Origin: Cutibacterium porci | GTDB taxonomy: Bacteria; Actinomycetota; Actinomycetes; Propionibacteriales; Propionibacteriaceae | Direction: 5' to 3' | NCBI RefSeq assembly: GCF_009696315.1 | Contig: NZ_VUMG01000003.1 | Span: 521,405-585,404 of the forward strand | DNA length: 64,000 nt | Part shown: positions 19,195 to 64,000 of the stretch, in pieces | How positions within the stretch are numbered: the first letter of the stretch is position 1 | Layout: each line of letters begins with the position of its first letter | Translations under genes and position numbers: made by a program | Notes under the pieces: model-generated | Databases searched by the model: none | The model's input: the letters and a program-made list of their open reading frames with translations, nothing else | Told to the model about the DNA's origin: nothing

Positions 19195-21619
19195 TCACGC
19201 CAAGTCATCGGCGAGGCGATCTTTGGCGCGGATACCCCGCAACCCCATCAACGGACCAATCAATGCCAGCAGGCCGAGGACTGCCACCCAGCCCAGGATC
19301 CAGTCATGTGGGACCGACAAGTGAAGCGAGTGGGACATTCCGTGCGCGAGGACCACGGGGCCTACAGCGACGAGGCTCGCAAGAAGTCCGCAGGTCGCCA
19401 CCAGTAGCAGGCTCTGGATAATGGGAACTTTACGGCAGAACTGTGATGGCAAGCCGATGGCCAGGAGCTGTCGACTCTGGCCCCGTGCGGTCTCGCCAAA
19501 GGAAGAACACACGCTCATAGTGATGATGACTCCGATGACAAGCAGCGCCAAGCACACCGCCCACAAACTGGGGGGGGAGTTCCGGCTTCGGCGGGGCTTT
19601 GTAGTACGTCAGAACGCGCGGGTCCAACTTCTGAGTGTGGACGAACTCGATTGCTTTCGCGATCTGGGCCTCGTCAACTCCGACATAGACCCACCGGTCG
19701 GGCATGGATGCCGCATGCAGCGCTGTGACAGAACCCTCCAGCAAAACTCCGCCATATATGAAACTCCACGTCGGGGGGACAGCCACGTGCCGAGACGACA
19801 CGCCAACGCGCCGCCCGTTGTCCAAGGAAAGCTCCACGGTGCCGGGGAATTCGTCAAAGCCCAACATCGCACCGTCCTGCAATGCGGTGCGTTGCCCTTG
19901 GTCCAGCGTGACGCCAAGAACACGCTCAGCTTCTGATGGCTGGGCAACTACCATGACTCCCTGTGCCCCCGGAGTTCCCGTGGAGGAAATCTGGCCGTTT
20001 AGGATGTGGACCGCCAGCGGCGCAGGAAGCCCCGCACCGGCTTGTATCCGCTGCGGCAGATTTTTTGGCAACGGTTGGCCATTGGGAGACTGAACAACCA
20101 ACTGTCCAGGGATCGCCATGCTGATCGCGGCGCTGGAACTCAAGTAGGACGCCATGATCACAGTGACACTCGCTGGGATCGCAAGGCACATGCACAGAGC
20201 TGATCCCAAGGCCCGGACCCTGCGCCGGTCGGCGCGCACATTGGTCAGCGCCAGCCACCCGGGCAAGGATGGCAGATGTAGCACGGCGATGAGTCCTGTG
20301 AGGATGTCGGGCACGACCAGAGCCAGACCCAGGGCACTGAGAACAACGCTTTTGACAGCACCATCGAGCTGACGTGCACCATAGACAGTGATCAAGGCAG
20401 TCATTAGCAGCCCCACCGCGCCGATTCGTCGGCTCCAACTCAACAGGGAGGCAAATCGAGCGGATCCCTGCCCCGGACGCCACGATACGTTCTGGAAGAT
20501 GGCGATACTCAGCAGTGAAAGAACGACGGTGAGCCCCAAGAGTGACAATCCCAGAAGAAGCACCGGGGCTGCGGGGCTGAGTGGCTGAGTCATAAAGTGC
20601 GGCAAAACTGCAAGCCGTATCACTTGCCCGGCGAGCCAGCCGATTCCGACGCCAGCTAAGCATGCTCCGAGACAGACAAGTAGAACGACACCGAGAGTGG
20701 GGATCGGGGTCACCGACATGGGGATACCCATGCGAAGCATTGCGGCGCGTTCTATCTGGAGGGATCTCGACAGTCGAGTGGTCGTGGTCAGCTGAACGGC
20801 ACCACACAGGAGAAGACAGGGGATCATGATCAGGTATGAACTATGCGCGAACAGGGACCGCTGGGCGCGGCCCTGCAGGAACGCACGATCCAAAGCTCCC
20901 GCGTGCAGGTGATCGACTGGCGTACCAGATGCTTTTGCGATCACAGGAATCATGGCGTCCAGCTCAACCCCGTCCCACAGGTACTGGGTCGTAGAGGTGA
21001 GGTCGGGGTACCCGGTTGACGCGGCGGCCGACATCTGCTGCCAAGTCCCAGGTGCGCCCACAACCTCCAGCCCCTTGGTGGCATAGACGTCCCGAAAGGT
21101 TCCGACCACGGCGAGACGAGTGGAGTTGCTGAATGCTCTGATGGTGGAGGGATTACCAAGACGCACCAAGAGCGTCTCCGACATCATGACTTCACCGGAT
21201 CGACTGGGCCACCGTCCCGCCGCAAGCGCGTAGCGGGAGGGCTTGCTCCCCTGCTGCCACTCCATGTATTCGAGACGATCCTGCGGACCGGTGGACAGAC
21301 CCGTGGAGCGAAAGCCGTCGATCTGGAGATCTGATCCGTATACGCCAACGCGCACATTCTTGGCACCGGCTGCCGCCATCGCCTTCAGGACGGCGCGATC
21401 CGGGTAGCGGGTGGCCTGTGGTTGATGGACGACCACGGAGGCGCCACTTGGACCAAGCTCGCGATCCGCCACCTGAGCACCACTGAGCGCGAAAGACGAC
21501 ACAGCGACGTACAACGCCACGAACGCTGCCACCACAGCCAGCAACGGTACGGCCGCGGTGAAGCGGCTGCGGTTGCGACTCCAAATCCTCAACAGTGCGA
21601 TGTTCAGACTGTGACTCAC
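19195..21619 (-). pseudogene. FtsX-family ABC transporter permease, frameshifted at a C8 tract
   Basis: GTG at 21619 opens a 729-codon frame (to 19430) that looks like a macrolide-export/FtsX permease: an N-terminal helix, a large extracytoplasmic domain and several membrane helices in two blocks. At about residue 684 (KPELPP) the coding strand has eight C; with seven, the frame would continue into 123 codons ending at 19195 that hold the expected last membrane segments (WAVCLALLVIGVIITMSV ... GWVAVLGLLALIGPLMGL), for about 807 residues in all. In this sequence the C-terminal helices are replaced by a nonsense tail. Its GTG overlaps the original ATPase stop (GTGA). It could be a phase-variable gene in its off state or a plain pseudogene. 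Confidence 0.85.
19570..19577 (+). repeat. Homopolymer G8 (C8 on the coding strand) inside the ABC permease
   Basis: Eight consecutive G on the plus strand exactly at the point where the permease frame breaks. Loss of one base restores the full frame. Such tracts are slippage-prone. Confidence 0.9.
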
Positions 21620-34417: not shown

Positions 34418-35335
34418 ATGAGAACCACCATGAAACCAGCGCTCGTAGCAGCGGCTAGCGTTATCGGGATCGGCGCATCTGGTCTAGCCTACGGAGCTAT
34501 CGAGGCGCGTCGGTTCGTCGTCCGTCGCGTCGAGGTGCCCATACTCACTCCCGGGAGTGCACCGCTACGCATACTTCATATGTCTGATGTGCATCTGTTA
34601 GTGCGCCAGAACGCTAAGCGGAAGTTCATCCGAGAACTCGCCGCCCTTGAACCTGACCTCGTCATTAATTCCGGCGACAACTTTTGTTCAGCCGAGGCAC
34701 TCCAGCCACTCCTCGACGACATGTCGGGGCTGTTGACACGGCCTGGGGCCTTTGTGTTTGGGTCCAACGACTACCTGGTACCGAAGTTTAAGAATCCGTT
34801 GTCGTACCTTGTGCGGGGACGATCTCATCTGACCGACGAGGCGGTGCCGGAGCTTCCCCACGAGGAGCTTCGCCAGGCTTTCACCACTGCAGGATGGCTC
34901 GACCTCAACGACAATTCGGGGACGCTTGAGGTGGCCGGTCATCGATTGGCCTTCCGCGGAACTGACGACGCCCACCACAACCGCGACCACTACGAAAAAG
35001 TGGCTGGCCCAGCCGACAGTGATGCCGACCTCAATATCGGCGTCACCCATGCCCCCTATCTCAAGATCCTCGACGCCATGGTGAGCGACGACATGGACAT
35101 CGTGTTCGCGGGTCATACTCACGGCGGGCAGGTGTGTTTGCCCTTCACAGGGGCGATCATCACCAACTGCGATTTGGACACCGACCGTGTTAAGGGGCTT
35201 TCGAAGCACACCTGCGATGGGCGCACCGCATGGTTGCATGTTTCAGCCGGGATAGGGTGCTCCCCCTTTGCTCCGTATCGCACCTTCTGCCGCCCAGAAG
35301 CGACCCTGCTTACCCTCATGCCCCGGCCCCGATGA
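34418..35335 (+). CDS. Membrane-associated metallophosphoesterase
   Basis: 305 residues from ATG 34418, one base past the PBP stop. N-terminal membrane segment (about 6-25), then the calcineurin-like signature: LHMSDVHL (D, H), INSGDNF (GDxx), FGSNDYL (GND; the usual GNH/GNN has Asp), VTHAPY and FAGHTHGGQV. Two-metal phosphoesterase; the substrate in this YkuE-like group may be a lipid-linked pyrophosphate or UDP-type substrate (family knowledge, not proven). Start choice rests on the spacing; ATG 34430 is an alternative. Confidence 0.88.
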   Translation: MRTTMKPALVAAASVIGIGASGLAYGAIEARRFVVRRVEVPILTPGSAPLRILHMSDVHLLVRQNAKRKFIRELAALEPDLVINSGDNFCSAEALQPLLDDMSGLLTRPGAFVFGSNDYLVPKFKNPLSYLVRGRSHLTDEAVPELPHEELRQAFTTAGWLDLNDNSGTLEVAGHRLAFRGTDDAHHNRDHYEKVAGPADSDADLNIGVTHAPYLKILDAMVSDDMDIVFAGHTHGGQVCLPFTGAIITNCDLDTDRVKGLSKHTCDGRTAWLHVSAGIGCSPFAPYRTFCRPEATLLTLMPRPR

Positions 35336-52015: not shown

Positions 52016-53551
52016 ATGAACCCAACCATTGTTGACGTCGGTGCTCCTCTTACCCCCGGCGATATCGTCGCAGTGGCCCGACGAGGAGCCCACGTGACGG
52101 TCGGAGACGACGCGATGGAGCGGGTGAAACGAGCCTCGGACCTTGTCGAAAGCCTGGCCGATGATCCCAACCCCCATTACGGCATCTCTACCGGCTTCGG
52201 TGCCTTGGCTTCGACCCGGGTGCCCCGTGACCACCGGGTCGCCCTGCAACATTCCCTCATCCGGTCCCATGCCGCTTCCACTGGACCGCGCGTCGAGAAT
52301 GAGGTCATCCGAGCCATGATGACCCTGCGCCTCAAGACGATGGCATCTGGCCATACCGGAGTGCGTCCGCACGTCGTCACCACTTACGCTAATCTGCTCA
52401 ACTCCGGACTCGTCCCGGTCGTGGGCGAATATGGGTCTCTTGGCTGTTCCGGCGACCTCGCCCCGCTAGCCCACTGTGCCCTCGTCCTCACCGGCGAGGG
52501 GACCGTCCTCACCCCTGACGGCGACGAGGTTGACGCCGCCACCGGTTTGGCCCAGGCCGGGCTGAAGCCTGTCTCGCTGCGCGAGAAGGAAGGACTGGCC
52601 CTCATCAACGGCACCGATGGCATGCTTGGCCAGCTCATCATGGCTCTAGCCGACCTCGACGTCCTCGTCCCGGCAGCTGACCTAGCCACCGCTATGACCG
52701 TCCAGGCGCTGTGCGGCATCGACCGGGTCTTTGCTCCTGACCTCCAGGCCCTGCGACCTCACCCAGGCCAGAGCACCTCGGCCGCTAACATACTCGGCTT
52801 GTTGGAAGGCTCCGACCTCATCCAGGCTGGTCGAGAGGGCGCCGCCAAGCGAGTCCAGGACGCCTACTCCCTACGCTGCGCTCCGCAGGTCCACGGCGCG
52901 GTCCGTGACACGATGGCCCATGCCTTACAGGTGGCGAAGGTCGAGTTGGCCTCAGCCGTCGATAATCCGGTGATTACCGACGACATGAGGGTGGAGTCCA
53001 ACGGCAACTTCCACGGTGCTCCCGTGGCATATGTGCTCGATTTTCTGGCCATCGCGGCAGCCGACCTCGCGTCGATGAGCGAGCGTCGAACCGACCGTAT
53101 GCTCGACCCGGCCCGTAACCGCGACCTGCACCCCTTCCTGGCTGACGACCCTGGCGTCGACTCGGGGCACATGATCGCCCAATACACCCAAGCCGGCATC
53201 GTCTCCGAAATGAAGCGGTTGGCCGTCCCAGCATCGGTGGACTCCATCCCAACCTCAGCCATGCAGGAGGACCACGTCTCGATGGGATGGTCGGCTGCCC
53301 GCAAACTGCGCCGCGCCATCGACGGTATGGGGGCAGTCATTGGTATCGAGATCCTGACCGCCGCCAAAGCCATCCAGATGCGCGGTTTGGAGCCGTCGAA
53401 GCCGGTGGCCGACGTCATCGCGACGATGCGCAAGACGATTCCTGGCCCCGGACCGGACCGCTTCCTGGCCCCCGAAATTGATGAGGCCCACCGTCTGGTG
53501 GCTTCCGGTGAGCTCCTTGAGGTCGCCCGTCAGAGCGTGATGGTGAGTTGA
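52016..53551 (+). CDS. hutH: Histidine ammonia-lyase
   Basis: 511 residues, AAAGGA site before ATG 52016, 106 bp after hutI. PHYGISTGFGALAST (about 45-59; the active-site Tyr), the MIO prosthetic group segment GSLGCSGDLAPLAHCAL (about 140-156) with C144-S145-G146, NGTDGMLGQL and SAVDNPVI (about 316). Deaminates histidine to urocanate, the entry step. The first MIO residue is Cys instead of the common Ala; the Ser-Gly that matter for cyclisation are kept. Its stop is 39 bases before the repeat-like elements upstream of cas3. Confidence 0.96.
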   Translation: MNPTIVDVGAPLTPGDIVAVARRGAHVTVGDDAMERVKRASDLVESLADDPNPHYGISTGFGALASTRVPRDHRVALQHSLIRSHAASTGPRVENEVIRAMMTLRLKTMASGHTGVRPHVVTTYANLLNSGLVPVVGEYGSLGCSGDLAPLAHCALVLTGEGTVLTPDGDEVDAATGLAQAGLKPVSLREKEGLALINGTDGMLGQLIMALADLDVLVPAADLATAMTVQALCGIDRVFAPDLQALRPHPGQSTSAANILGLLEGSDLIQAGREGAAKRVQDAYSLRCAPQVHGAVRDTMAHALQVAKVELASAVDNPVITDDMRVESNGNFHGAPVAYVLDFLAIAAADLASMSERRTDRMLDPARNRDLHPFLADDPGVDSGHMIAQYTQAGIVSEMKRLAVPASVDSIPTSAMQEDHVSMGWSAARKLRRAIDGMGAVIGIEILTAAKAIQMRGLEPSKPVADVIATMRKTIPGPGPDRFLAPEIDEAHRLVASGELLEVARQSVMVS

Positions 53552-53589
53552 TCGCACACCATTCGTATGCATGGCTCCGGTAGCGTGGG

Positions 53590-53679
53590 ATGTGCTCTGC
53601 CCATGCAGAGGTGAGCCATTGTTGAGTTGCGTGTCGTCCGCATCTCCCGTGTCCTCCCCGCCGTTGCGGGGGTCGGCGG
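53590..53679 (+). ncRNA. Two degenerate CRISPR repeats around a 32-nt spacer-like sequence (CreR-like crRNA candidate)
   Basis: Element 1 (53590-53618) has a hairpin CTCTGC-CCAT-GCAGAG followed by GTGAGCCA. The array repeat has CCCCGC-TTAT-GCGGGG then GTGAGCCG/T, so the stem has compensatory changes and the 8-nt crRNA handle is kept but for its last base. Element 2 (53651-53679) has CCCCGC-CGTT-GCGGGG and matches the array repeat at 21 of 29 positions, with only its handle decayed. Between them lie 32 nt (53619-53650), the array's spacer length, so the elements are spaced by exactly one 61-nt array period. Cas6e could cut both hairpins and release one crRNA-like guide. No separate promoter could be identified with certainty. 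Confidence 0.78.
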
Positions 53680-53709
53680 CGACTTGTGGTTGTCTGGCCA
53701 TTATTTAAT

Positions 53710-53745
53710 AACTTGTTTAGTTGAGGAACTTTTCTGTGCTATTGT
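53710..53745 (+). promoter_or_regulatory. Putative cas operon promoter overlapping a partial match to the crRNA-like guide
   Basis: 53713-53725 reads TTGTTTAGTTGAG, against guide positions 1-13 TTGTTGAGTTGCG: identical except positions 6 and 12. The three bases before it are AAC, in the place of a type I-E PAM. A TATTGT -10-like box with TG upstream lies at 53740-53745, so the match covers the -35 side of the likely cas3 promoter. Identity stops after position 13, so binding without cleavage is expected. Confidence 0.6.
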
Positions 53746-53776
53746 CCCTGCCAACACCAACCGCAAGGAAGCGACA

Positions 53777-56572
53777 ATGCTCAACACCTGGTCCCCACCA
53801 GCACAGTCCTGCTGGGGAAAGACAAATGAGTCCGGGGGCTGGCTGCCTGTGGTCCAGCATCTCGAAGATGCTGCCGGAATCATGGCCGAAGTCTGGAGAC
53901 TCCAGCCACAATCCATCCGATCGCTCCTGGCGGACACTCTTGGCGGGGAGCGGGCTGCCCAGACGTTCGTATGCTTCCTGGCAGGGATCCATGACGTCGG
54001 CAAGATCAGCGCCGACTTTGCCTACAAAGCACGTTTCCCGCGACCCGATGGCACGTCGACGAGCTATTTGTGCGATCAGATGGAGCGCCACGGATTCGTC
54101 ATCACCAAGCCGGAACACCCAATCCCGCATGGCGCAGTCGGGCAGTGCCACACCCAAGCATGGCTACTGAACCGTTACCCGGATGTCCCCAGGGCACGCC
54201 GCTGTGCCCGCAACATCGCATCCATCGTTGGTGGCCACCACGGCATGAACCCAACGGACGGCGATGTGAAGGAATACGGGCTGTCCTTGGCGCGCGAGGA
54301 CCATCTGTGGAAGGCCACCCGTGACGAGGTCCTCAACACCATGGCCGCACACACGGGCGCCGAAGAATACCTACCCAAGTGGATGAGCACGTCGATCCCG
54401 ATCCAGGTGCAAGTGTTGTCGGAGGCGCTCGTGATCATGGCTGATTGGATCGCCAGTTCGGAGTCCCTCTTCCCCTACGACGTCACCGAACAGACACCTG
54501 ATCGCGTGCGTCGCGCTGCCACGCGGCTCCATCTTCCTCATCCGTGGCAGCTGCCCCCGGCGTCGAACGACGCGGCAGACATTTTCCGAAGGAGTTTCCC
54601 CTCGATCCCCGGCGGCGCGCCCAATGCCATGCAGGCCTCGGCCGTCGAGGCGGCCGAGGCTATGACTGAGCCAGGCCTGCTCGTCATTGAAGCTCCTATG
54701 GGGCAGGGCAAGACCGAGGCGGCCCTCATGTGCGCCGAAGTTCTTGCCCGCAAGTTCGGGCTCGGAGGTGTCTTCTTCGGGCTGCCGACAATGGCGACGT
54801 CCAACCCCATGTTCGGTCGAGTTCGGGAATGGCTCGACGCCGTGCCCGCCACAGAATCGTCGAGCATCTCCCTGGCCCACTCGAAGGCTGGACTCAACGA
54901 GGAATACCAGCAGCTCATGCCGTGGAACGCGCACATGGATGTCTACGACGACAGCGCCGGCACGCAGCGTGAAGCTTCGGCGATCGTCCATGAGTGGTTC
55001 TTGGGCCGCAAACGCGCCATCCTCGCAGACCACGTCGTCGGGACCATCGACCAGGCACTTTTCACCGGTCTCAAAGCCAAGCATGTGGTGTTGCGCCACC
55101 TCGGTCTGGCGAGCAAGGTCGTTATCATCGACGAGGTCCATGCCGCCGACGTCTACATGCGGGAGTACCTCAAGGTCGTCCTCGAGTGGCTCGGCGCCTA
55201 CCGCACGCCAGTCATCCTCATGTCCGCGACGCTGCCACCGGCCCAACGTCATGAACTCGCGCTAGCGTACGCTAAAGGACGCCACGGAAGAAACGCGCAG
55301 GTGGTCCTCACGACGACCGATGAGTACCCAATCGTGACCACGGTATCCGATGGTGTCGCTCAACAAGGCACTTCGACGTCGGCACCCGGACGACAGATTG
55401 TCGTCCGCTCTATGGGCGACTCCCTTGACGAGCTCATCAGCCTCATTGAAGACAAGATGGCCGACGGTGGTTGCATCGGCATCATCCGCGACACCGTCTC
55501 TCGAGCCCAGGAGACCTTCGACGCACTCGAGTCCCGGCTAGACTGCGAGGTGGTGCTCGTCCACTCGCGTTTCCTGGCTCCGCAACGCGCACGACGGGAG
55601 GCCGACCTCGTACGGCGCCTCGGACGCTCTGGAGGCGACCGTCCGCACAGAATCGTCGTCGTCGGGACGCAGGTGCTCGAGCAATCCCTCGACGTCGACT
55701 TCGACCTGCTCGTCAGCGACATCGCGCCGATGGACCTTCTGCTGCAGCGCATCGGCCGCCTTCATCGGCACGACCGACAACGCCCGGTTTCCCTGCGTGA
55801 AGCCACTTGTCTCGTCACCGGCATCGACGATTGGCGAGACGACGGTCCGGCGTTCAGCCGAGGCGTCGACTCTGTCTATGGCGAGGACGCACTCCTGCGT
55901 ACCGCCGCGCTCCTGAACAACCTGCCTGGTGGCACAGCGACGGTGCCCGCAGACATCCCGCGGCTCGTCCGTGAGGCGTATTCAGAACCGTTCACCTGGC
56001 CTACGAAATGGGCCGCACGGGGCGACGAGGCCAGCATGAAAGCGCGTTCGGAACACGGGGAAGCGGAGAACAGGGCGAAGACGTTCAGGTTGGCCCACCC
56101 GTATGTCGCATCAAGCCTCATGAAGGGACTCACCGACGTCTCGACCCTTGATCCGGAGAACTCGTCGGGCCATGCCAGGGTGCGCGATTCCGAGGACTCG
56201 ATCGAGGTCATCGTCATCCAAGAGTCTGGCTCCGGTGGTCATCGGCTCCCCTCTGGCATCGGGGAGTTCTCGGGTGCCGAGCTGCCGCTGTTCGGGGCTC
56301 CCGAAGGTGCGTTGGCTCGGGCGGTGGCATCGTGCACCGTCTCGTTGCCAAGGTCTGTGTCGAACCCTTGGGACATCGACCAGACAATTGCCGAACTCGA
56401 AGCCGCACCAATCGACCTCAGCTCCTGGCAGACCTCGCCGTGGCTTCGGGGCCAGCTCGTCCTCGTGCTGGACGCCGAGGGCAATTCGACACTACTGGGC
56501 CGCCCCATCCATTATGATTCTAAGCGCGGGCTCACGGTCGAGCCCCGCCTCGATAAGGGAGATCCGGCATGA
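53777..56572 (+). CDS. cas3: CRISPR-associated helicase/nuclease Cas3 (type I-E)
   Basis: 931 residues from ATG 53777 with AAGGAAG upstream; a longer frame to 53627 would cover the repeat-like element and promoter. HD nuclease domain with H28 and GIHDVGK (H72-D73) and a HH pair in VGGHHGMNP (about 152-160). SF2 helicase: APMGQGKTEAAL (about 306-317), DEVH (about 452), SATLP (about 483), QVLEQSLDVDFD (about 632) and QRIGRLHRHDR (about 656). It unwinds and degrades DNA marked by Cascade. First gene of an eight-gene overlapping operon. Confidence 0.96.
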   Translation: MLNTWSPPAQSCWGKTNESGGWLPVVQHLEDAAGIMAEVWRLQPQSIRSLLADTLGGERAAQTFVCFLAGIHDVGKISADFAYKARFPRPDGTSTSYLCDQMERHGFVITKPEHPIPHGAVGQCHTQAWLLNRYPDVPRARRCARNIASIVGGHHGMNPTDGDVKEYGLSLAREDHLWKATRDEVLNTMAAHTGAEEYLPKWMSTSIPIQVQVLSEALVIMADWIASSESLFPYDVTEQTPDRVRRAATRLHLPHPWQLPPASNDAADIFRRSFPSIPGGAPNAMQASAVEAAEAMTEPGLLVIEAPMGQGKTEAALMCAEVLARKFGLGGVFFGLPTMATSNPMFGRVREWLDAVPATESSSISLAHSKAGLNEEYQQLMPWNAHMDVYDDSAGTQREASAIVHEWFLGRKRAILADHVVGTIDQALFTGLKAKHVVLRHLGLASKVVIIDEVHAADVYMREYLKVVLEWLGAYRTPVILMSATLPPAQRHELALAYAKGRHGRNAQVVLTTTDEYPIVTTVSDGVAQQGTSTSAPGRQIVVRSMGDSLDELISLIEDKMADGGCIGIIRDTVSRAQETFDALESRLDCEVVLVHSRFLAPQRARREADLVRRLGRSGGDRPHRIVVVGTQVLEQSLDVDFDLLVSDIAPMDLLLQRIGRLHRHDRQRPVSLREATCLVTGIDDWRDDGPAFSRGVDSVYGEDALLRTAALLNNLPGGTATVPADIPRLVREAYSEPFTWPTKWAARGDEASMKARSEHGEAENRAKTFRLAHPYVASSLMKGLTDVSTLDPENSSGHARVRDSEDSIEVIVIQESGSGGHRLPSGIGEFSGAELPLFGAPEGALARAVASCTVSLPRSVSNPWDIDQTIAELEAAPIDLSSWQTSPWLRGQLVLVLDAEGNSTLLGRPIHYDSKRGLTVEPRLDKGDPA

Positions 56573-58227
56573 CGAGTGCTTTCAACCTCATGGACGAGCC
56601 GTGGATCCTCGCTCGCGAACCGGACAACCGCGTGGTCGAGGTGTCGATTCGGGATGCCTTCCACCGTGCAACCGAGCTGCGGGCGCTCGCCGGGGAGATC
56701 CCGACCCAGGAGGCAGCCATCCTGCGTTTGCTGCTGGCCATCGTGATGCGAGCCACGGCGCGCGAGCGCAGCGACGACGAGAAGGTCGACGACTGGGGCC
56801 AGTGGTGGAGCGAGGGTCTTCCCCTCGACGAAATCGACTCCTACCTCGACCAGTGGCACGACCGCTTCGACCTCTTCGACGACCGGGCGCCGTTCATGCA
56901 GGTCGCAGATCTTCACACTGCCAAGGGTGGGTTCTCCGGCCTGACGAAGATCATCAGCGAGGTCCCAGCCAACGACAAGTTCTTCACCACCAGGGACGGT
57001 GCCGGCATCGCAAGCCTGTCCTTTGCGGAGGCCGCCAGGTGGCTCGTCCACGCCCACGCCTTCGACGTGTCAGGCATCAAATCGGGTGCGGTGGGCGATC
57101 CCCGGGTCAAGAGCGGAAAGGGTTTCCCCATCGGCACGGGCGTGAGCGGCCCGATGGGAATCGTCGTCGTCGAAGGCGCGAACCTATCCGAGACGATCCT
57201 GCTCAACCTCTTCCTGGAGGACGACCCCGAGGGCGACGTCCCGGTCTGGGAACGTCCTGCGCAGGGTCCCGCGCCGGACGCACAACATCCCGTGCCGACG
57301 GGGTGCGCTGATCTCTTCACGTGGCAGAGCCGTCGGGCACGGCTCATCACTGACGGTGAGCGCGTCACCGACGTGCTCCTGTGTAACGGTGACAAGGTCG
57401 AGTGGAAGGACCTCCTCCACAAGGACTCCTCGACCGCCTGGCGGTTCAGTGCACCCCAAACGAAGACCGCCGGGCAGGTGGTCTACATGCCACGCAGCCA
57501 TGACGCAACCAAGGCCATGTGGCGAGGACTCGAGCCGCTACTCGCCCGCGAGCCCTCCCCTGAGGATCATCACAAGCGCAAGCCGGGCGAGCCGGACCGC
57601 CAGTGGTTGCGACCCGAGATCTTCGAACAGTTGGCCATGCTCACCGCCGACGGCGTGCTGCCCAGCGCCCATATGGCACGAGTCCGCACGATCGGAATGG
57701 AGTACGGCCCCAAGGCGTCGTCGGTCTCAAGCGTGATTGACGACGCCCTCCCGACATCAATGGCCGTCCTCGCCGACGAGCAGCTCGCTCGGCTGGCGGT
57801 CGACTGTGCCAGGACGGCGGAGGGGCTCGTCTTCGCCCTGCAGAACCTCGCCACTGACCTGGCCACTGCGACCGGCAGCGAGGCCGAAGGGGTGCGCCCG
57901 CACGCCGCCGAGGCCGGCTTCGCATCGCTCGATCCCGACTACCGCGACTGGTTCAGTCACCTGTCCAGCACGACCGACATCGATGGCGCTCGCGTCGCAT
58001 GGCGCCGCCGAGCCCGCCAGGTCGTACGTGATGTCGGCCGTCAGCTGTGCCGCGACGCCGGCCCGATGGCGTTGACCGGACGCATGATCACGGTGCCGAA
58101 CACCGAGCGCGAGGACCTCATGGATGTCGCGCGAGCATGGCAGCGTTTCGCGAGCCGACTACGCACATCGGCCCCACTACCGGATGACCCCCAACCCCGA
58201 TCCGAGACCTCCTCGAAGGAGAAGTGA
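56569..58227 (+). CDS. casA: Cascade large subunit Cse1/CasA (Cas8e)
   Basis: 552 residues, ATGA overlap with cas3. FNLMDEPWILAR (about 4-15) is the classic Cse1 N-terminus; EIPTQEAAILRLLLAIVMRA (about 44-63), FDDRAPFMQV and the central GKGFPIGTG region (about 183-191, in the L1/PAM-reading area) follow, with a C-terminal four-helix bundle. It recognises the PAM and recruits Cas3. Confidence 0.95.
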   Translation: MTSAFNLMDEPWILAREPDNRVVEVSIRDAFHRATELRALAGEIPTQEAAILRLLLAIVMRATARERSDDEKVDDWGQWWSEGLPLDEIDSYLDQWHDRFDLFDDRAPFMQVADLHTAKGGFSGLTKIISEVPANDKFFTTRDGAGIASLSFAEAARWLVHAHAFDVSGIKSGAVGDPRVKSGKGFPIGTGVSGPMGIVVVEGANLSETILLNLFLEDDPEGDVPVWERPAQGPAPDAQHPVPTGCADLFTWQSRRARLITDGERVTDVLLCNGDKVEWKDLLHKDSSTAWRFSAPQTKTAGQVVYMPRSHDATKAMWRGLEPLLAREPSPEDHHKRKPGEPDRQWLRPEIFEQLAMLTADGVLPSAHMARVRTIGMEYGPKASSVSSVIDDALPTSMAVLADEQLARLAVDCARTAEGLVFALQNLATDLATATGSEAEGVRPHAAEAGFASLDPDYRDWFSHLSSTTDIDGARVAWRRRARQVVRDVGRQLCRDAGPMALTGRMITVPNTEREDLMDVARAWQRFASRLRTSAPLPDDPQPRSETSSKEK

Positions 58228-58853
58228 TGCCTGAACCATGGAATGACGTGACCTCGGCGACGGTGTCAGCCATCAGCCGTCTGCAACACGGTTACCTCAC
58301 GACACCGCGCGACCCATGGGCTGTCCGTACGCTTGCGTCATTGCGACGCGCCGACGAGAGCAGGCCTGGCGCCGACCCGAGCCTGTGGGACGTCACCCTC
58401 GGCCGTCTGCCCGACGAGCTCCTGGGCCACGGCACGTCGCCCGCGACAGCGGCGGAGCGGGCCGTCCATGCCGCGGTCGTGCTCTACGCCGTTCACCAGC
58501 AGTCCCGAGCGGAACCCATGCACGCGACTGGCGTCGGGCTCGGGCAGGCTGTGCGCATGCTGTCGGTAAAACGTTCCGACGGCACGGAATGGGATCCGGG
58601 CACGATCTCGCGCTTCCAACACATGTGCCGGGCCCAACAGTGGGCCATCCGTGTCGACAACTTGCGAGGGCTCGTCACCCTCATGCGCTCCGAAGCGGTT
58701 CCCCTCGACTACGGACGCCTGGCAGCCGATCTGTGGCGACTCCAGGTGTCGGCCCCCGATCAGGTCCTCCTGAAGTGGGGACGTCAACTCCACAGAATCC
58801 CCCTCACCAAGCAGGCTGCCTCCACCGAGACCGATCAAGGAGAACCCCGATGA
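58227..58853 (+). CDS. casB: Cascade small subunit Cse2/CasB
   Basis: 208 residues from ATG 58227, which overlaps the casA stop by one base. All-helical basic protein with ALRRADESRPGADPSLW-type opening (about 32-50), TAAERAVHAAVVLYAVHQQSR (about 73-93) and DYGRLAADLWRLQ (about 163-175), as in Cse2. Two copies line the Cascade belly and hold the displaced DNA strand. Confidence 0.92.
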   Translation: MPEPWNDVTSATVSAISRLQHGYLTTPRDPWAVRTLASLRRADESRPGADPSLWDVTLGRLPDELLGHGTSPATAAERAVHAAVVLYAVHQQSRAEPMHATGVGLGQAVRMLSVKRSDGTEWDPGTISRFQHMCRAQQWAIRVDNLRGLVTLMRSEAVPLDYGRLAADLWRLQVSAPDQVLLKWGRQLHRIPLTKQAASTETDQGEPR

Positions 58854-59974
58854 GCTCATATTACGTTGACATCCACGTCATTCAGAGCGTCCCGCCGTCG
58901 AACGTCAACCGGGACGACACTGGATCACCGAAGTCCGCCCTGTACGGAGGAGTCCGGCGGGCCCGCGTGAGTTCACAGGCGTGGAAGAAGGCGGTGCGAA
59001 CATCGTTCAAGGATCTCCTTCCTGCCTCCCAGAGCGGTGTGCGTACCCTGCGGGTGGTGGAACTGCTCATGAATCGGCTCACTGCCGACCCGTACGGCCT
59101 CAGCGAGGAGGACGCGCGCGACCGGGCCCTCGCCGTCGTCAAGGCCCTCGGACTGAAGGCTGAGAAACCCCGGGCGAAGAGCGACTCGCCCAAGGAACCG
59201 ATCGAGCGCACCCAGTACTTGGTGTTCTACTCGAACCAGCAGCTGGACCGGCTGGCCGAACTCGCCGCCAGTACTGAAGGAAAGATTTCAGCCCCTGACG
59301 CGAAGAAGGCCGCTGATTCTGATCATGGGATCGAGGTGGCCCTGTTCGGCCGCATGGTCGCCGACTCCAAGGACCTCAACGTCGACTCGGCCGTTCAGGT
59401 CGCCCACGCTCTGAGTACCCATGCCGTGGAGACTGAGGCCGACTACTTCACCGCCGTCGATGACTACAAGCTCGACGAGGACGACGCGGGCGCTGGCATG
59501 ATCGGCACCGTCGAGTTCACCTCCGAGACCCTGTACCGGTTCGCCACGGTCGCCGTCTCGACCTTGGAGGGCAACCTCGGTGACGTCGACCTCACTGCCG
59601 ACGCCGCAGCCGCATTCGTCCGTGGGTTCGTCATGTCGATGCCAACGGGCAAGCAGAACACCTTCGCCAACAACACGATCCCTGACGCCGTGGTCGTCCA
59701 GATCCGCAAGGGTCGTTCCGCGAGCTTCGTCGGGGCCTTCGAGGAACCTGTGACGTCCGGCAACGGCGGATTCGTCGCCGAGTCGTGCCGAGCGCTGGCA
59801 GCTTACGCGCATGACTGCGAGGAAGCGTTCCTGGGAGCGCCCGAGGCATCCTTCGTCATCCGCGTCGGCTCACGCACCGAGGCCATTGGCGCCATGGGCA
59901 CCCCCATGCCGATGGACGACCTCGTCTCCTCGGTGCGTGACACGGTCACGTCCCTCCTGCGGGGCGAGTCGTGA
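58850..59974 (+). CDS. casC: Cascade backbone subunit Cas7e (CasC/Cse4)
   Basis: 374 residues, ATGA overlap with casB. YYVDIHVIQSVPPSNVNRDDTGSPKSALYGGVRRARVSSQAWKKAVR opening (RRAR-S-Q-AWK is the Cas7e hallmark), AVDDYKLDEDDAGAGMIGTVEFTSETLYRFA (about 203-233) and GKQNTFANNT (about 264-273, the thumb/RNA-binding region). Six copies coat the crRNA and flip out every sixth base, the geometry that matters for the guide match upstream of cas3. Confidence 0.96.
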   Translation: MSSYYVDIHVIQSVPPSNVNRDDTGSPKSALYGGVRRARVSSQAWKKAVRTSFKDLLPASQSGVRTLRVVELLMNRLTADPYGLSEEDARDRALAVVKALGLKAEKPRAKSDSPKEPIERTQYLVFYSNQQLDRLAELAASTEGKISAPDAKKAADSDHGIEVALFGRMVADSKDLNVDSAVQVAHALSTHAVETEADYFTAVDDYKLDEDDAGAGMIGTVEFTSETLYRFATVAVSTLEGNLGDVDLTADAAAAFVRGFVMSMPTGKQNTFANNTIPDAVVVQIRKGRSASFVGAFEEPVTSGNGGFVAESCRALAAYAHDCEEAFLGAPEASFVIRVGSRTEAIGAMGTPMPMDDLVSSVRDTVTSLLRGES

Positions 59975-60678
59975 CCGTCCTCGTCCTCAGGCTCGCCGGG
60001 CCGTTGCAGTCGTGGGGCGACTCCAGCCGCTTCACGACTCGCGCGACCCGCCGGGAGCCCACCAAATCCGGGGTCATCGGCCTGCTGGCGGCAGCGCAAG
60101 GACGCCGACGCACGGACAGCATCGAGGACCTCCTGTCGCTGCGATTCGGTGTACGCGCCGATCAACCCGGCTCCGTCGTTCGAGACTTCCAGACGGCGAT
60201 GGACTGGTCGCACCCGAAAAGAGACGGAGGCGTCAACTCGATGCCCCTGTCACACCGCTATTACTTGGCTGACGCCGTCTTCGTGGCAGCGGTCGAAGGG
60301 GAACCATCACTGCTGGAGGCGCTGGATGAAGCCATCGCCGATCCGGTGTTTCCGCTCTACCTTGGCCGGAGGTCGTGCCCCACGGAGGGGCAGGTGTCCC
60401 TGGGTGTGCGTGACGGCGACCTGCTGACAGCGCTGACCAACGAACCGTGGTGTGCCAAGCCGTGGCAGCAACGCCGGCTGCCGCGATCGGTGCGACTTCA
60501 GATCGCTTACGACGCCGAGCCGGGCCAAGTCGGCGACACCGTCCGGGACATTCCACTGAGTTTCAGCCCGGAGCGGCGTGAGTACGGCTGGCGCGACGTC
60601 GCGACGACGACGGTTGTCGTCGACAATCCCATCGGCAGTGACGAGCCGGACTGGTTCGCAGGCCTGGAAGGAGCGTGA
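59971..60678 (+). CDS. casD: Cascade subunit Cas5e (CasD)
   Basis: 235 residues, GTGA overlap with casC. VLVLRLAGPLQSWGDSSRFTTRATRREPTKSGVIGLLAAAQG (about 3-44) is the Cas5e RAMP start; YLADAVFVAAVEG and YLGRRSCP (about 129-136) are also typical. It caps the 5' handle of the crRNA. Confidence 0.95.
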   Translation: MTVLVLRLAGPLQSWGDSSRFTTRATRREPTKSGVIGLLAAAQGRRRTDSIEDLLSLRFGVRADQPGSVVRDFQTAMDWSHPKRDGGVNSMPLSHRYYLADAVFVAAVEGEPSLLEALDEAIADPVFPLYLGRRSCPTEGQVSLGVRDGDLLTALTNEPWCAKPWQQRRLPRSVRLQIAYDAEPGQVGDTVRDIPLSFSPERREYGWRDVATTTVVVDNPIGSDEPDWFAGLEGA

Positions 60679-61346
60679 CGTTGTTCCTCACTCAATTCGA
60701 CGTCAACGTGGCTCGTCGTGACGCCACGCGCCTCTTGGCATCCCCGGAACGACTCCACGCCGCGGTTCTGGCATCGTTTCCGCCCGGCCAATCCGCCACT
60801 GGATCCGCACGCACCCTGTGGCGGCTGGACCGTGGCCCGGCGAAACATGACGCGCGCCTCATCATCGTTAGCCCGTTGCAGCCCGACCTCACTGTTCTCA
60901 ACGAGCAGGCCGGGTGGTCGACGGGGACGCCTGGACGATCGGCTGACTATGACCCGTTCCTACGAGCTCTCCGTTCGGGATCTGCGTGGCGATTCCGATG
61001 CACCGTCAACCCGACGACTGCCGTGCGCAAACAGGGATCGTCGCGGGGGCGGCGGGTCGCAGAGGTCACGGCCGACCAGCAACTGCAATGGTTCATCACT
61101 CGCTTGGAGCGTCGCGGATTCCGACTCCCCGACGACCCCACGGGAGTTCCGTCCGCGCGGGTGACCCGGCGAGAGGTCCTGAGATTCCGACGTCAGTCCT
61201 CCACGGTCACACTTGCTGTAGCGCAGGTGGACGGCATTCTCGAGATCACCGATGTCGACGCCGCTCGATCGGCACTCGTTGGTGGAATCGGGCCAGCTAA
61301 AGGGTATGGCTGCGGACTTCTGACGCTGGCTCCGACCGGGAAATGA
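60675..61346 (+). CDS. casE: CRISPR RNA endonuclease Cas6e (CasE)
   Basis: 223 residues, GTGA overlap with casD. SPERLHAAVLASFPP (about 24-38) holds the catalytic His (about 28) as in E. coli CasE; the glycine-rich RAMP loop IGPAKGYGCGLLTLAP closes the protein. It cuts at the base of the repeat hairpin, leaving the 8-nt handle (GTGAGCCG or T here). Both repeat-like elements upstream of cas3 keep the stem it would need. Confidence 0.95.
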   Translation: MTLFLTQFDVNVARRDATRLLASPERLHAAVLASFPPGQSATGSARTLWRLDRGPAKHDARLIIVSPLQPDLTVLNEQAGWSTGTPGRSADYDPFLRALRSGSAWRFRCTVNPTTAVRKQGSSRGRRVAEVTADQQLQWFITRLERRGFRLPDDPTGVPSARVTRREVLRFRRQSSTVTLAVAQVDGILEITDVDAARSALVGGIGPAKGYGCGLLTLAPTGK

Positions 61347-61349
61347 ATC

Positions 61350-62288
61350 GTGGCCATGCCGATCCCAGGCGCGCGACCCGCCGAGGTGCAGGAGCTGGCA
61401 CGCGCCCAGGACCGGCTAAGTTTCGTTTACATGGAGCACTGTGTCGTGAACCGCGACTCGAATGCCATCACGGCGGCGAACCAGCAGGGCACAGTGCACA
61501 TCCCAGCATCGATGATCGGAGCGCTGCTGCTGGGCCCAGGAACGAACGTCACCCACCAAGCAATGATGTTGCTGGCGGAATCCGGATCCACGACATTGTG
61601 GGTCGGTGAGCACGGCGTCCGGTACTACGCCCACGGACGTCCCCTCGCCCGAACGACCCGACTGCTGCAACTGCAAGCGGAAGCTGTCACGGACCGAACG
61701 AAGCGGCTGGCCGTGGCGCGACGCATGTACGAGATACGCTTCCCCGACGACGTGGCCACTGGGCTGACCCTGCAGGAGCTCCGAGGACACGAGGGCGCGA
61801 GAGTCCGGCAGGCATACCGGGACGCGTCAATCAAGTTCGGCGTCGACTGGGACAAGCGCAGCTACAAGGTTGAGGACTTCTCTTCCTCGGATCCTGCGAA
61901 CCAGGCCCTCACTGCAGCCACGACGTGTCTGTACGGCGTGGTCCACTCCGTCGTCGCGGCGTTGGGGCTGTCTGCGGGTCTCGGCTTCGTACACACGGGC
62001 AAGGACCGTTCATTCGTCTACGACGTCGCCGACCTGTACAAGACGTCCCTAGCCGTACCAGTCGCATTCCAGTGCGCAGCGACCAACGATCTCGACGATC
62101 TTCCCGGCGCGACGAGACGTGCCATGCGCGACGCTATCCACGAATCAAAATTGCTCAGCAGGTGCGTCGAGGACATCCACACCGTTCTCAACGCTCCCGG
62201 AGACCCCGACGACGGATACGGCTGGGACGTGGTCGACCTGTGGGACGACCGCCAAGGTCTCGTCTCCGGCGGTAAGTCTTGGGGGTAG
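61350..62288 (+). CDS. cas1: CRISPR adaptation integrase Cas1 (type I-E)
   Basis: 312 residues from GTG 61350. RLSFVYMEHCVVNRDSNAI (about 21-39), GHEGARVRQAY (catalytic Glu about 148), GLGFVHTGKDRSFVYDVADLYK (His about 215, Asp about 228). Cas1e with Cas2e integrates new spacers. Three bases after casE. Confidence 0.96.
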   Translation: MAMPIPGARPAEVQELARAQDRLSFVYMEHCVVNRDSNAITAANQQGTVHIPASMIGALLLGPGTNVTHQAMMLLAESGSTTLWVGEHGVRYYAHGRPLARTTRLLQLQAEAVTDRTKRLAVARRMYEIRFPDDVATGLTLQELRGHEGARVRQAYRDASIKFGVDWDKRSYKVEDFSSSDPANQALTAATTCLYGVVHSVVAALGLSAGLGFVHTGKDRSFVYDVADLYKTSLAVPVAFQCAATNDLDDLPGATRRAMRDAIHESKLLSRCVEDIHTVLNAPGDPDDGYGWDVVDLWDDRQGLVSGGKSWG

Positions 62289-62290
62289 GC

Positions 62291-62635
62291 ATGGTCGTCC
62301 TTGTTCTCACCGCATGTCCTGCTGGTCTGCGCGGCCACTTGACGAGGTGGCTCCTCGAGATCAGCCCGGGAGTGTTCGTCGGCCATGTGCCGGCTCGTAT
62401 TAGAGACGCACTGTGGGACAGGGTAGTCGAGATGTGCCGCGACGGCCGCGCGATCCTCGTGTACACGGTTCGTGGGGAACAGCACTTCGAGTTCCGAGTT
62501 CACCGTCATGACTGGGAAGTTGTTGACTTCGACGGCTTGAAGCTCATGCGACGGCCGAACAGCAAAGCTCGATCCTCGACTCTCCGGCCAGGTTGGAGTT
62601 CTGCTGCGCGACGCCGTAAAGTACGTAATCGTTGA
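62291..62635 (+). CDS. cas2: CRISPR adaptation protein Cas2 (type I-E)
   Basis: 114 residues from ATG 62291, 2 bases after cas1. MVVLVLTACPAGLRGHLTRWLLEISPGVFVGHVPARIRDALWD is the CasB-type Cas2e opening, and VVDFDGLKLMRRP the usual end. A further 20 residues rich in Arg, Lys and Ser follow, longer than E. coli Cas2 (94 residues); this basic tail is read through DNA close to the array leader. Confidence 0.93.
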   Translation: MVVLVLTACPAGLRGHLTRWLLEISPGVFVGHVPARIRDALWDRVVEMCRDGRAILVYTVRGEQHFEFRVHRHDWEVVDFDGLKLMRRPNSKARSSTLRPGWSSAARRRKVRNR

Positions 62636-62689
62636 CGCGAGGCCACTCGCATCTCACTAACGCTCCTGCATCAGCCCTAGCCAGTTGGT
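62636..62689 (+). promoter_or_regulatory. CRISPR leader (short)
   Basis: Only 54 bases separate the cas2 stop from the first repeat. No AT-rich leader tract or clear promoter is visible; CTAGCCA near 62677 is the only weak -10-like element. The functional leader may extend into the cas2 3' end. Confidence 0.5.
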
Positions 62690-64000
62690 GTATTCCCCGC
62701 TTATGCGGGGGTGAGCCGTCGGCTGGCGCGGTCGGTCAGGCCGAGTTCCAGTATTCCCCGCTTATGCGGGGGTGAGCCGGAGAGACAGTCTCGTCCATCA
62801 CTGTCAAAGGCGTATTCCCCGCTTATGCGGGGGTGAGCCGCAGCGGTTCTGCAGTGGAGTCGAATGCCCAACGTATTCCCCGCTTATGCGGGGGTGAGCC
62901 GGCCGGAGCAGCCGTAGCCACCGTAGGAGCCGCGTATTCCCCGCTTATGCGGGGGTGAGCCGTTCGCCCGCGAGACCGACACCACCCAGCACAAGTATTC
63001 CCCGCTTATGCGGGGGTGAGCCGTCGTCAGGCCGTGTCAATCCAGGTTCCCCCTCGTATTCCCCGCTTATGCGGGGGTGAGCCGCCATCCGCGACGCGCA
63101 GCGTAGAGGAGTAGCGGTATTCCCCGCTTATGCGGGGGTGAGCCGACCAAAGCCGTCATCCGGGCAGGAGGAGCGAGGTATTCCCCGCTTATGCGGGGGT
63201 GAGCCGGACTCCATCTCCGAGGCATCCAACCTCGAACAGTATTCCCCGCTTATGCGGGGGTGAGCCGAGAGACAGTCTCGTCCATCACTGTCAAAGGCAG
63301 TATTCCCCGCTTATGCGGGGGTGAGCCGTGTCTGTGCTGGCAGACACCCGGAAGTTCTCCGTATTCCCCGCTTATGCGGGGGTGAGCCGTTCTTCCTGCT
63401 GCTGGTTGGAGTAGGTTTCAGGTATTCCCCGCTTATGCGGGGGTGAGCCTATGGTCGACTGCTGTTTCATCCCATTTATCGGGTATTCCCCGCTTATGCG
63501 GGGGTGAGCCTATTGTTTTCGACGATGGCGCGATTCGTGGCAGGTATTCCCCGCTTATGCGGGGGTGAGCCTATCCCCAAAAAACAGTCTCCGCGGAACA
63601 AAAAGTATTCCCCGCTTATGCGGGGGTGAGCCTCCGTCTCACCCCACAGCAGCGCCACAACTGCAGTATTCCCCGCTTATGCGGGGGTGAGCCTACACGC
63701 CGTGAGCCATCGACGCCCCAGCAGTAGTATTCCCCGCTTATGCGGGGGTGAGCCTAAATGTGACAGCTTTCTGCATTTTCACTGGCGGTATTCCCCGCTT
63801 ATGCGGGGGTGAGCCTATCCCCAAAAAACAGTCTCCGCGGAACAAAAAGTATTCCCCGCTTATGCGGGGGTGAGCCTCCGTCTCACCCCACAGCAGCGCC
63901 ACAACTGCAGTATTCCCCGCTTATGCGGGGGTGAGCCTACACGCCGTGAGCCATCGACGCCCCAGCAGTAGTATTCCCCGCTTATGCGGGGGTGAGCCTA
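62690..64000 (+). CRISPR. Type I-E CRISPR array, 22 repeats visible, continuing past the window
   Basis: Repeat 29 nt: GTATT, stem CCCCGC, loop TTAT, stem GCGGGG, then GTGAGCC plus G or T. Spacers are all 32 nt (strict 61-nt period; repeats start at 62690, 62751 and so on to 63971). Repeats 1-12 end in G and repeats 13-22 end in T. Spacers 2 and 10 are the same sequence shifted by one base. Spacers 15-16-17 reappear in order as 19-20-21. The repeat block starting at 63971 is complete and is followed by one spacer base. The cas2-proximal end should be the leader end, with the newest spacers. Confidence 0.99.

Follow-up and report, generated by a model that had tools for sequence, protein, structure and literature searches.

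The cas operon and its array

The window, by which we mean the whole 64,000-nucleotide stretch of Cutibacterium porci DNA that was analysed, ends in a type I-E CRISPR-Cas locus with the following genes and features.

53777-56572, forward strand: cas3, the operon's first gene (NCBIfam cas3_core and cas3_HD, above cut-off)
56569-61346, forward strand: casA, casB, casC, casD and casE, type I-E Cascade (TIGR02547, TIGR02548, TIGR01869, TIGR01868 and TIGR01907)
61350-62635, forward strand: type I-E cas1 and cas2 (TIGR03638 and TIGR01873)
62689-64000, forward strand: CRISPR array, 28 fixed repeat bases plus a variable base 29, with a period of 61

All eight of the type I-E Cas proteins are present and score over curated cut-offs. 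For casA to casE, cas1 and cas2 these are the NCBIfam matches listed; for Cas3 they are the generic Cas3 domain models, the E. coli-type equivalog PRK09694 falling under its own cut-off. From cas3 to casE every gene start overlaps the end of the preceding gene, with cas1 and cas2 only a few bases behind; the whole operon is therefore probably transcribed from a single promoter ahead of cas3.

The array runs to the end of its contig, and the same repeat is also found at the start of contig C1. A 214-nucleotide block at 63543-63756 is repeated identically at 63787-64000, and one 32-nucleotide spacer sequence is present twice (from 62780 and from 63267); these repeats are either an internal duplication or, with the contig ending there, an artefact of assembly. 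Repeat base 29 is G in 12 and T in 9 of the 21 units of this array. It is also variable in the arrays of three relatives (G003, G002 and G007), while all 27 units counted in each of two others, G004 (locus L124) and G008 (locus L126), have a C there. In E. coli, repeat base 29 copies the last base of the PAM, and here too it may be a record of the PAM used in adaptation. Our assignment of the PAM is based on this variable base and on the promoter sites described below. When the arrays of the window, G003, G004 and C. avidum were compared with 50,697 phage records, no Cutibacterium phage was matched and no PAM could be read from protospacers; the matches of the four arrays were repeat-like or marginal.

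A two-repeat element upstream of cas3

Between hutH and cas3, at 53590-53679, lies an element with type I-E-like repeats. Its parts, and the parts of the cas3 promoter that concern us here, are listed below.

53581-53586, forward strand: TAGCGT, putative -10 of a promoter for the guide RNA, from conservation
53590-53618, forward strand: degenerate repeat 1 (psi-R1), with a 6-bp stem and a crRNA-type 5' handle
53595-53600 and 53605-53610, forward strand: stem arms of repeat 1, CTCTGC and GCAGAG, by direct reading
53611-53618, forward strand: handle of repeat 1, GTGAGCCA, by direct reading
53619-53650, forward strand: guide of 32 nucleotides, by direct reading
53651-53679, forward strand: degenerate repeat 2 (psi-R2), stem kept and handle gone
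53656-53661 and 53666-53671, forward strand: stem arms of repeat 2, CCCCGC and GCGGGG, the same stem as in the array
53710-53712, forward strand: AAC in PAM position, a putative PAM, by direct reading
53713-53725, forward strand: seed target in the cas3 promoter, matching the guide at 11 of 13 positions
53740-53745, forward strand: TATTGT, putative -10 for the cas operon, its first base at target position 28

The first-pass annotation of this DNA had described two degenerate repeats 61 nucleotides apart, start to start, around a 32-nucleotide guide, which we could confirm base by base. Direct reading bears out the details as well: repeat 1 has a 6-bp hairpin kept by compensatory changes (two C-G pairs of the array stem have become T-A) and 7 of the 8 handle bases, and repeat 2 has kept its hairpin and lost its handle. 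Because the eighth handle base is repeat base 29, which itself varies in the array of the window, repeat 1 in fact retains all seven of the fixed ones. Identity to the array repeat over 28 positions is 19 for repeat 1 and 20 for repeat 2. The summed repeat score at 61-nucleotide spacing is therefore 39 of 56, against a maximum of 31 among 5000 dinucleotide shuffles.

Folded alone, hairpin 1 is in the minimum-energy structure (-8.7 kcal/mol, 34% of the ensemble); folded with 91 nucleotides of its own context it competes with another fold and is absent from that structure. A terminator-like consensus match at 53659-53681 (0.3 expected) overlaps repeat 2. The TAGCGT directly 5' of repeat 1 is identical in all five aligned genus sequences, a decayed one included, and may be the -10 of a promoter for the guide RNA itself. 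A sigma-70 consensus scan of 53500-53800 called no promoter, and our -10 assignments rest on TANNNT hexamers and conservation. An Rfam search of the same stretch gave sroE at 22.3 of 51 bits and CRISPR-DR10 at 12.2 of 39 bits, both below gathering thresholds and taken as chance.

The guide and the cas3 promoter

Over positions 1-13 the guide agrees with 53713-53725, the only mismatches being at 6 and 12, and the match is preceded by AAC, just as the first-pass annotation had it; further on, matches are scattered. In 20,000 shuffles of the 126-nucleotide promoter part, the real guide reached 10 of 10 test positions 11 times. Taken alone, then, the match in the window is about a 1-in-2000 event, with the PAM not yet counted, and on sequence comparison it is the relatives described below that make it decisive. 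The exact pattern of AAN plus seed (positions 1-5, 7-11 and 13) has a single site in the whole 2.6-Mb genome, at the cas3 promoter, and a looser form of the pattern has one site each in the genomes of G002, G004 and G008. From the putative -10 to the cas3 ATG (53777) there are 31 nucleotides, which include a Shine-Dalgarno-like AAGGA.

Conservation within the genus

The genus set consists of nine genomes, of which G000 is the window. Element and target are both present in four of them: G000, G002 (C. avidum), G004 and G008 (timonense); in G004 a third repeat is present. In the order G000, G004, G008, G002, the guide and target bases at position 7 are A/A, A/A, G/G and G/G, and those at position 11 are G/G, G/G, G/G and A/A, so where the guide differs the target differs with it. 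Position 6 is mismatched in all four and position 12 in three, and both vary freely. The pairing at position 13 is broken in C. avidum.

The remaining genomes show several ways of losing the pair. In G007 there are gaps in the element and in the target, and a stop in cas3, so that guide and target have decayed together. In G003 the cas genes are intact and exact repeats number 64, but the element is missing; it is therefore dispensable. G006 has neither the element nor the promoter; its cas3 match covers only about 500 residues, and none of the other cas genes turned up in the 21.5 kb examined. In G005 (L300, C3:103500-110500) the operon is gone from this place, and hutH is followed by an orphan element whose second repeat is more worn. 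A lone array repeat lies about 4 kb downstream, on the side expected for operon and array, with no Cas protein match between the two. The G005 genome has no site fitting AANTTGTTNRGTTR, and a diverged cas3 remnant lies on another of its contigs. In G001 neither cas3 nor the element was found.

Recurrence in the family and beyond

We then consider 50 regions, each of 600 nucleotides upstream of cas3 or as much as the contig allowed. They come from 45 family genomes, the window included, with a match near the Cas3 N-terminus, and from five of six order genomes outside the family. Any cas3 match was found in 64 of the 198 family genomes; G144, G182, G040 and G200, and also weak helicase-only matches, are excluded from the 50, and G010, G067 and G191 are included with short regions of about 300 nucleotides each. 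The scan required a strict handle and took the highest-scoring match downstream, leaving the PAM, position 6 and anything beyond position 11 unused. It replaced an earlier hairpin-based scan that had called 18 of the 50 regions, with about 6 expected by shuffling, and that had both missed true cases and called false ones.

A strict handle was present in 32 of the 50 regions, and in 19 of these the guide matched its own promoter at 9 or 10 of the 10 positions; the other 31 of the 50 had no pair at 9 or more. Among 10,000 shuffled regions, 3305 had a strict handle, 59 scored at least 9, and one did so with AA in the PAM position. All 19 targets are preceded by AA at -3/-2, compared with a background of 3.5%, the full triplets being AAC (nine), AAG (five), AAT (four) and AAA (one). 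AA precedes the best match in just one (G414) of the 13 strict-handle regions that scored lower. The best scores of G023 (7) and G414 (8) fall under 9 and are uncounted. A separate scan, with AA required and looser handles allowed, gave for each of the 19 no shuffle in 300 that equalled the real region.

The pairing profile of these 19 is uneven. Positions 1-5, 7 and 8 match in all of them, position 9 in 13, position 10 in 18 and position 11 in 17, and position 6, which was not selected for, matches in 4, the chance level. Beyond the scored part, matches number 5 at position 12, 17 at 13, 16 at 14, 11 at 15, 8 at 16, 12 at 17 and 4 at 18, followed by between 1 and 9 at each position from 19 onward. 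Positions 12 and 18, likewise unselected and at chance level, together match in 9 of 38 cells, compared with 64 of 95 at positions 13-17 (Fisher p 6e-6); with four related genomes removed the figures are 7 of 30 and 52 of 75 (p 2e-5). Cascade flips out the bases at positions 6, 12 and 18, and judged by this profile the dips are its pairing geometry. When guides were swapped, 10 of 342 cross pairs reached 9, all of them within the window's genus or between the near-identical G060 and G061. The guides differ between genera and do not fit foreign promoters.

Beyond the order, 62 class genomes outside the genus had matches and 28 of them yielded loci (among these, L163 has a short flank and a possibly shifted region). 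One of the 28 regions, that of G543, reaches 9. This genome (L175) is of the same class and another family; its pair lies about 350 nucleotides upstream of cas3, scores 9 of 10 after an AAT and has matches to about position 19. An alignment query yielded 46 cas3 loci in named genomes, where a single-protein query had given none. Of these, 19 were chosen and none reached 9; two of the 19 (A. jensenii, which is G010, and Nocardioides) are in the order. From these scans the trait is common in the family, and neither universal nor general.

It had been proposed with the first-pass annotation that related strains be compared for drift that breaks the hairpins and the seed match. Run across species, the comparison gave mostly the opposite, with covariation in the genus and recurrence on different guides family-wide; the exceptions, G003, G005, G006 and G007, are without an intact target as well. 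The same two results lend support to the central suggestion of that annotation, that Cascade may repress its own operon.

Proposed mechanism and its alternatives

In 10 of the 19 pairs (mean 1.5 and maximum 7 in 5000 shuffles) a TANNNT hexamer has its first base at target position 26-31, and in seven of the ten at 28. The count should be read with the knowledge that the 26-31 interval was picked after the positions had been seen and that four of the ten belong to one genus. Without G061, G004, G008 and G002 the count is 7 of 15. The nine others (G118, G059, G060, G061, G047, G034, G070, G081 and G305) have another spacing or no hexamer, and in G059, G060, G061 and G070 no TANNNT starts within 60 nucleotides from the target start. 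The spacing rule applies to part of the 19 pairs only. Given the usual 17-nucleotide spacer, the -35 box would lie under the seed, and bound Cascade would therefore cover the promoter from the -35 to the start of the -10.

We are highly confident that the element is a two-repeat mini-CRISPR, predicted from its sequence to encode a CreR RNA that leads Cascade to the cas3 promoter and likely represses the operon from cas3 to cas2. The mini-CRISPR would be transcribed from a promoter at about 53581, and Cas6e is predicted to process the transcript into CreR RNA, which would be loaded into Cascade. The loaded complex would then bind the cas3 promoter site and, by covering the -35 to the -10, repress the whole operon. 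Pairing in the window stops near position 13, which should allow binding without attack by Cas3; in some relatives pairing extends further, in G059 to about position 23. The loop would relax when array crRNAs or anti-CRISPRs draw Cascade off. The idea that it senses crRNA supply and anti-CRISPRs is one that we infer by analogy, carrying it over from the CreR work.

The same arrangement could be what is left of a decayed array, a dead spacer between two surviving repeats, its promoter match due to chance or to local duplication. Both repeats are indeed degenerate, repeat 2 is without a handle, and in G005 the loss of the operon did leave behind an orphan element and a single array repeat. Yet the matches of the 19 pairs begin at guide position 1, come after AA and not after the handle's CC, skip positions 6, 12 and 18 in most cases, and covary in the genus. 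Duplication or drift predicts none of this, and for that reason we regard a relic as extremely improbable.

A functional guide might also have another task. It could be a CreA-type antitoxin that represses a small toxin gene, as in CreTA, and not the cas operon; the anatomy is like that of CreA (PMC9458426), where too the first repeat has diverged more strongly than the second. However, the 31 nucleotides between the putative -10 and the cas3 ATG, with AAGGA among them, leave scant room for a toxin gene, and there are lineages that have lost operon or promoter, G005 keeping an orphan guide and G006 none, as would be expected for a regulator free of a toxin. An antitoxin is thus as improbable as a relic. 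It is also very unlikely that an expressed mini-CRISPR serves mainly as a decoy or buffer for Cascade, promoter contact being minor. The degenerate, weakly folding repeat 1 might load poorly, which would suit such a role, but a decoy has no need of a seed match, and it is the seed, the PAM and, for some of the pairs, the spacing to the -10 that are conserved.

Relation to known systems

CreR RNAs that regulate cas genes were reportedly described by Liu et al. 2023 in Cell Host & Microbe. The best match to the element is this class. Both have a mini-CRISPR of degenerate repeats adjoining the cas operon, a guide only partly complementary to the cas promoter (here 11 of 13, beside a PAM-like AAC), no coupled toxin gene (judged here from the 31 nucleotides before the cas3 ATG) and an effector encoded at the same locus, and nothing categorical was found to differ. 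Repression of cas operons through partial promoter complementarity is described for CreR in PMC13131331, PMC12948488 and PMC12737573, and the first of these reports CreR autorepression for types I-B, I-E and V-A. The first-pass annotation had placed CreR/CreA-type RNAs "in some other type I systems"; this needs correcting, since by that account type I-E is not an "other" system but one in which CreR is known (PMC13131331). From its sequence-level features the assignment of the element to CreR is well-founded, and this kind of self-control is already known. Among the literature matches listed, which are open-licence papers, there was no CreR-type report for this lineage. What is seen here is natural covariation in a genus, recurrence in a family, the 6-12-18 signature, and a fixed distance from seed to -10 in about half of the pairs.

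Two other systems are similar in part. CreA of CreTA (PMC9458426) has degenerate repeats, the first more diverged, and pairs partially with a promoter; it differs in that the target here is a cas promoter leading into cas3, with no toxin gene seen between. Racr RNA anti-CRISPRs (PMC10651486) share the mimicry of repeats outside an array. They are solitary repeats in phages and plasmids, whereas here two repeats and a guide sit between hutH and cas3 on a chromosome, beside their own cas operon.

Mini-CRISPRs in phages

A search for a phage copy of the guide returned at least 120 stretches with a loose pattern, none of the 80 listed having the stem, and none at all with a tighter pattern. Phages do carry mini-CRISPRs of their own. 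Nine records of P. freudenreichii phages (Anatole, B3, Doucette, E1 and B22) share one of type I-E with two repeats, a 61-nucleotide period, the handle GTGATCCC and a 32-nucleotide guide. It lies antisense to gene 26, and there is a partial match in a tenth record.

Anatole NC_041890.1, about 20650-20820, reverse strand: phage mini-CRISPR (L149)

Its guide has no AAN-flanked site at 9 of 10 positions in Anatole, and no exact site of AAN plus seed in four genomes of the genus Propionibacterium. Type I-E occurs in about 25% of P. freudenreichii strains according to PMC12755874. The phage element may act as an RNA anti-CRISPR or as a hijacking guide. In Streptomyces phage Piccadilly (OL455886.1, L148), six unannotated I-E-like repeats lie between genes 53 and 54 at about 34595-34905, with spacings of 61, 60, 58, 49 and 51. 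The array of G003 matched 16 Streptomyces phage records.

Implications

In its broadest form our reading has about an even chance of being right. CreR autorepression in the Propionibacteriales would be an old and recurrent control of type I-E systems, its seed locked on the -35 at a fixed distance from the -10. Promoter and guide would evolve as a unit, giving 15 distinct pairs (14 in the family) in which only the bases flipped by Cascade drift. Lineages that drop the guide would either become unthrottled, as G003 with its 64 exact repeats may have done, or lose the operon with only a fossil guide remaining, as in G005.

Apart from this broadest form, natural covariation shows without experiment that a lineage of skin commensals keeps a CRISPR guide directed at its own cas promoter. 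This predicts which species run type I-E throttled and which unthrottled, and it offers 18 further guide-promoter pairs for the study of repression by partially matched Cascade. It would also provide a ready system for asking whether phage attack or anti-CRISPRs release the brake.
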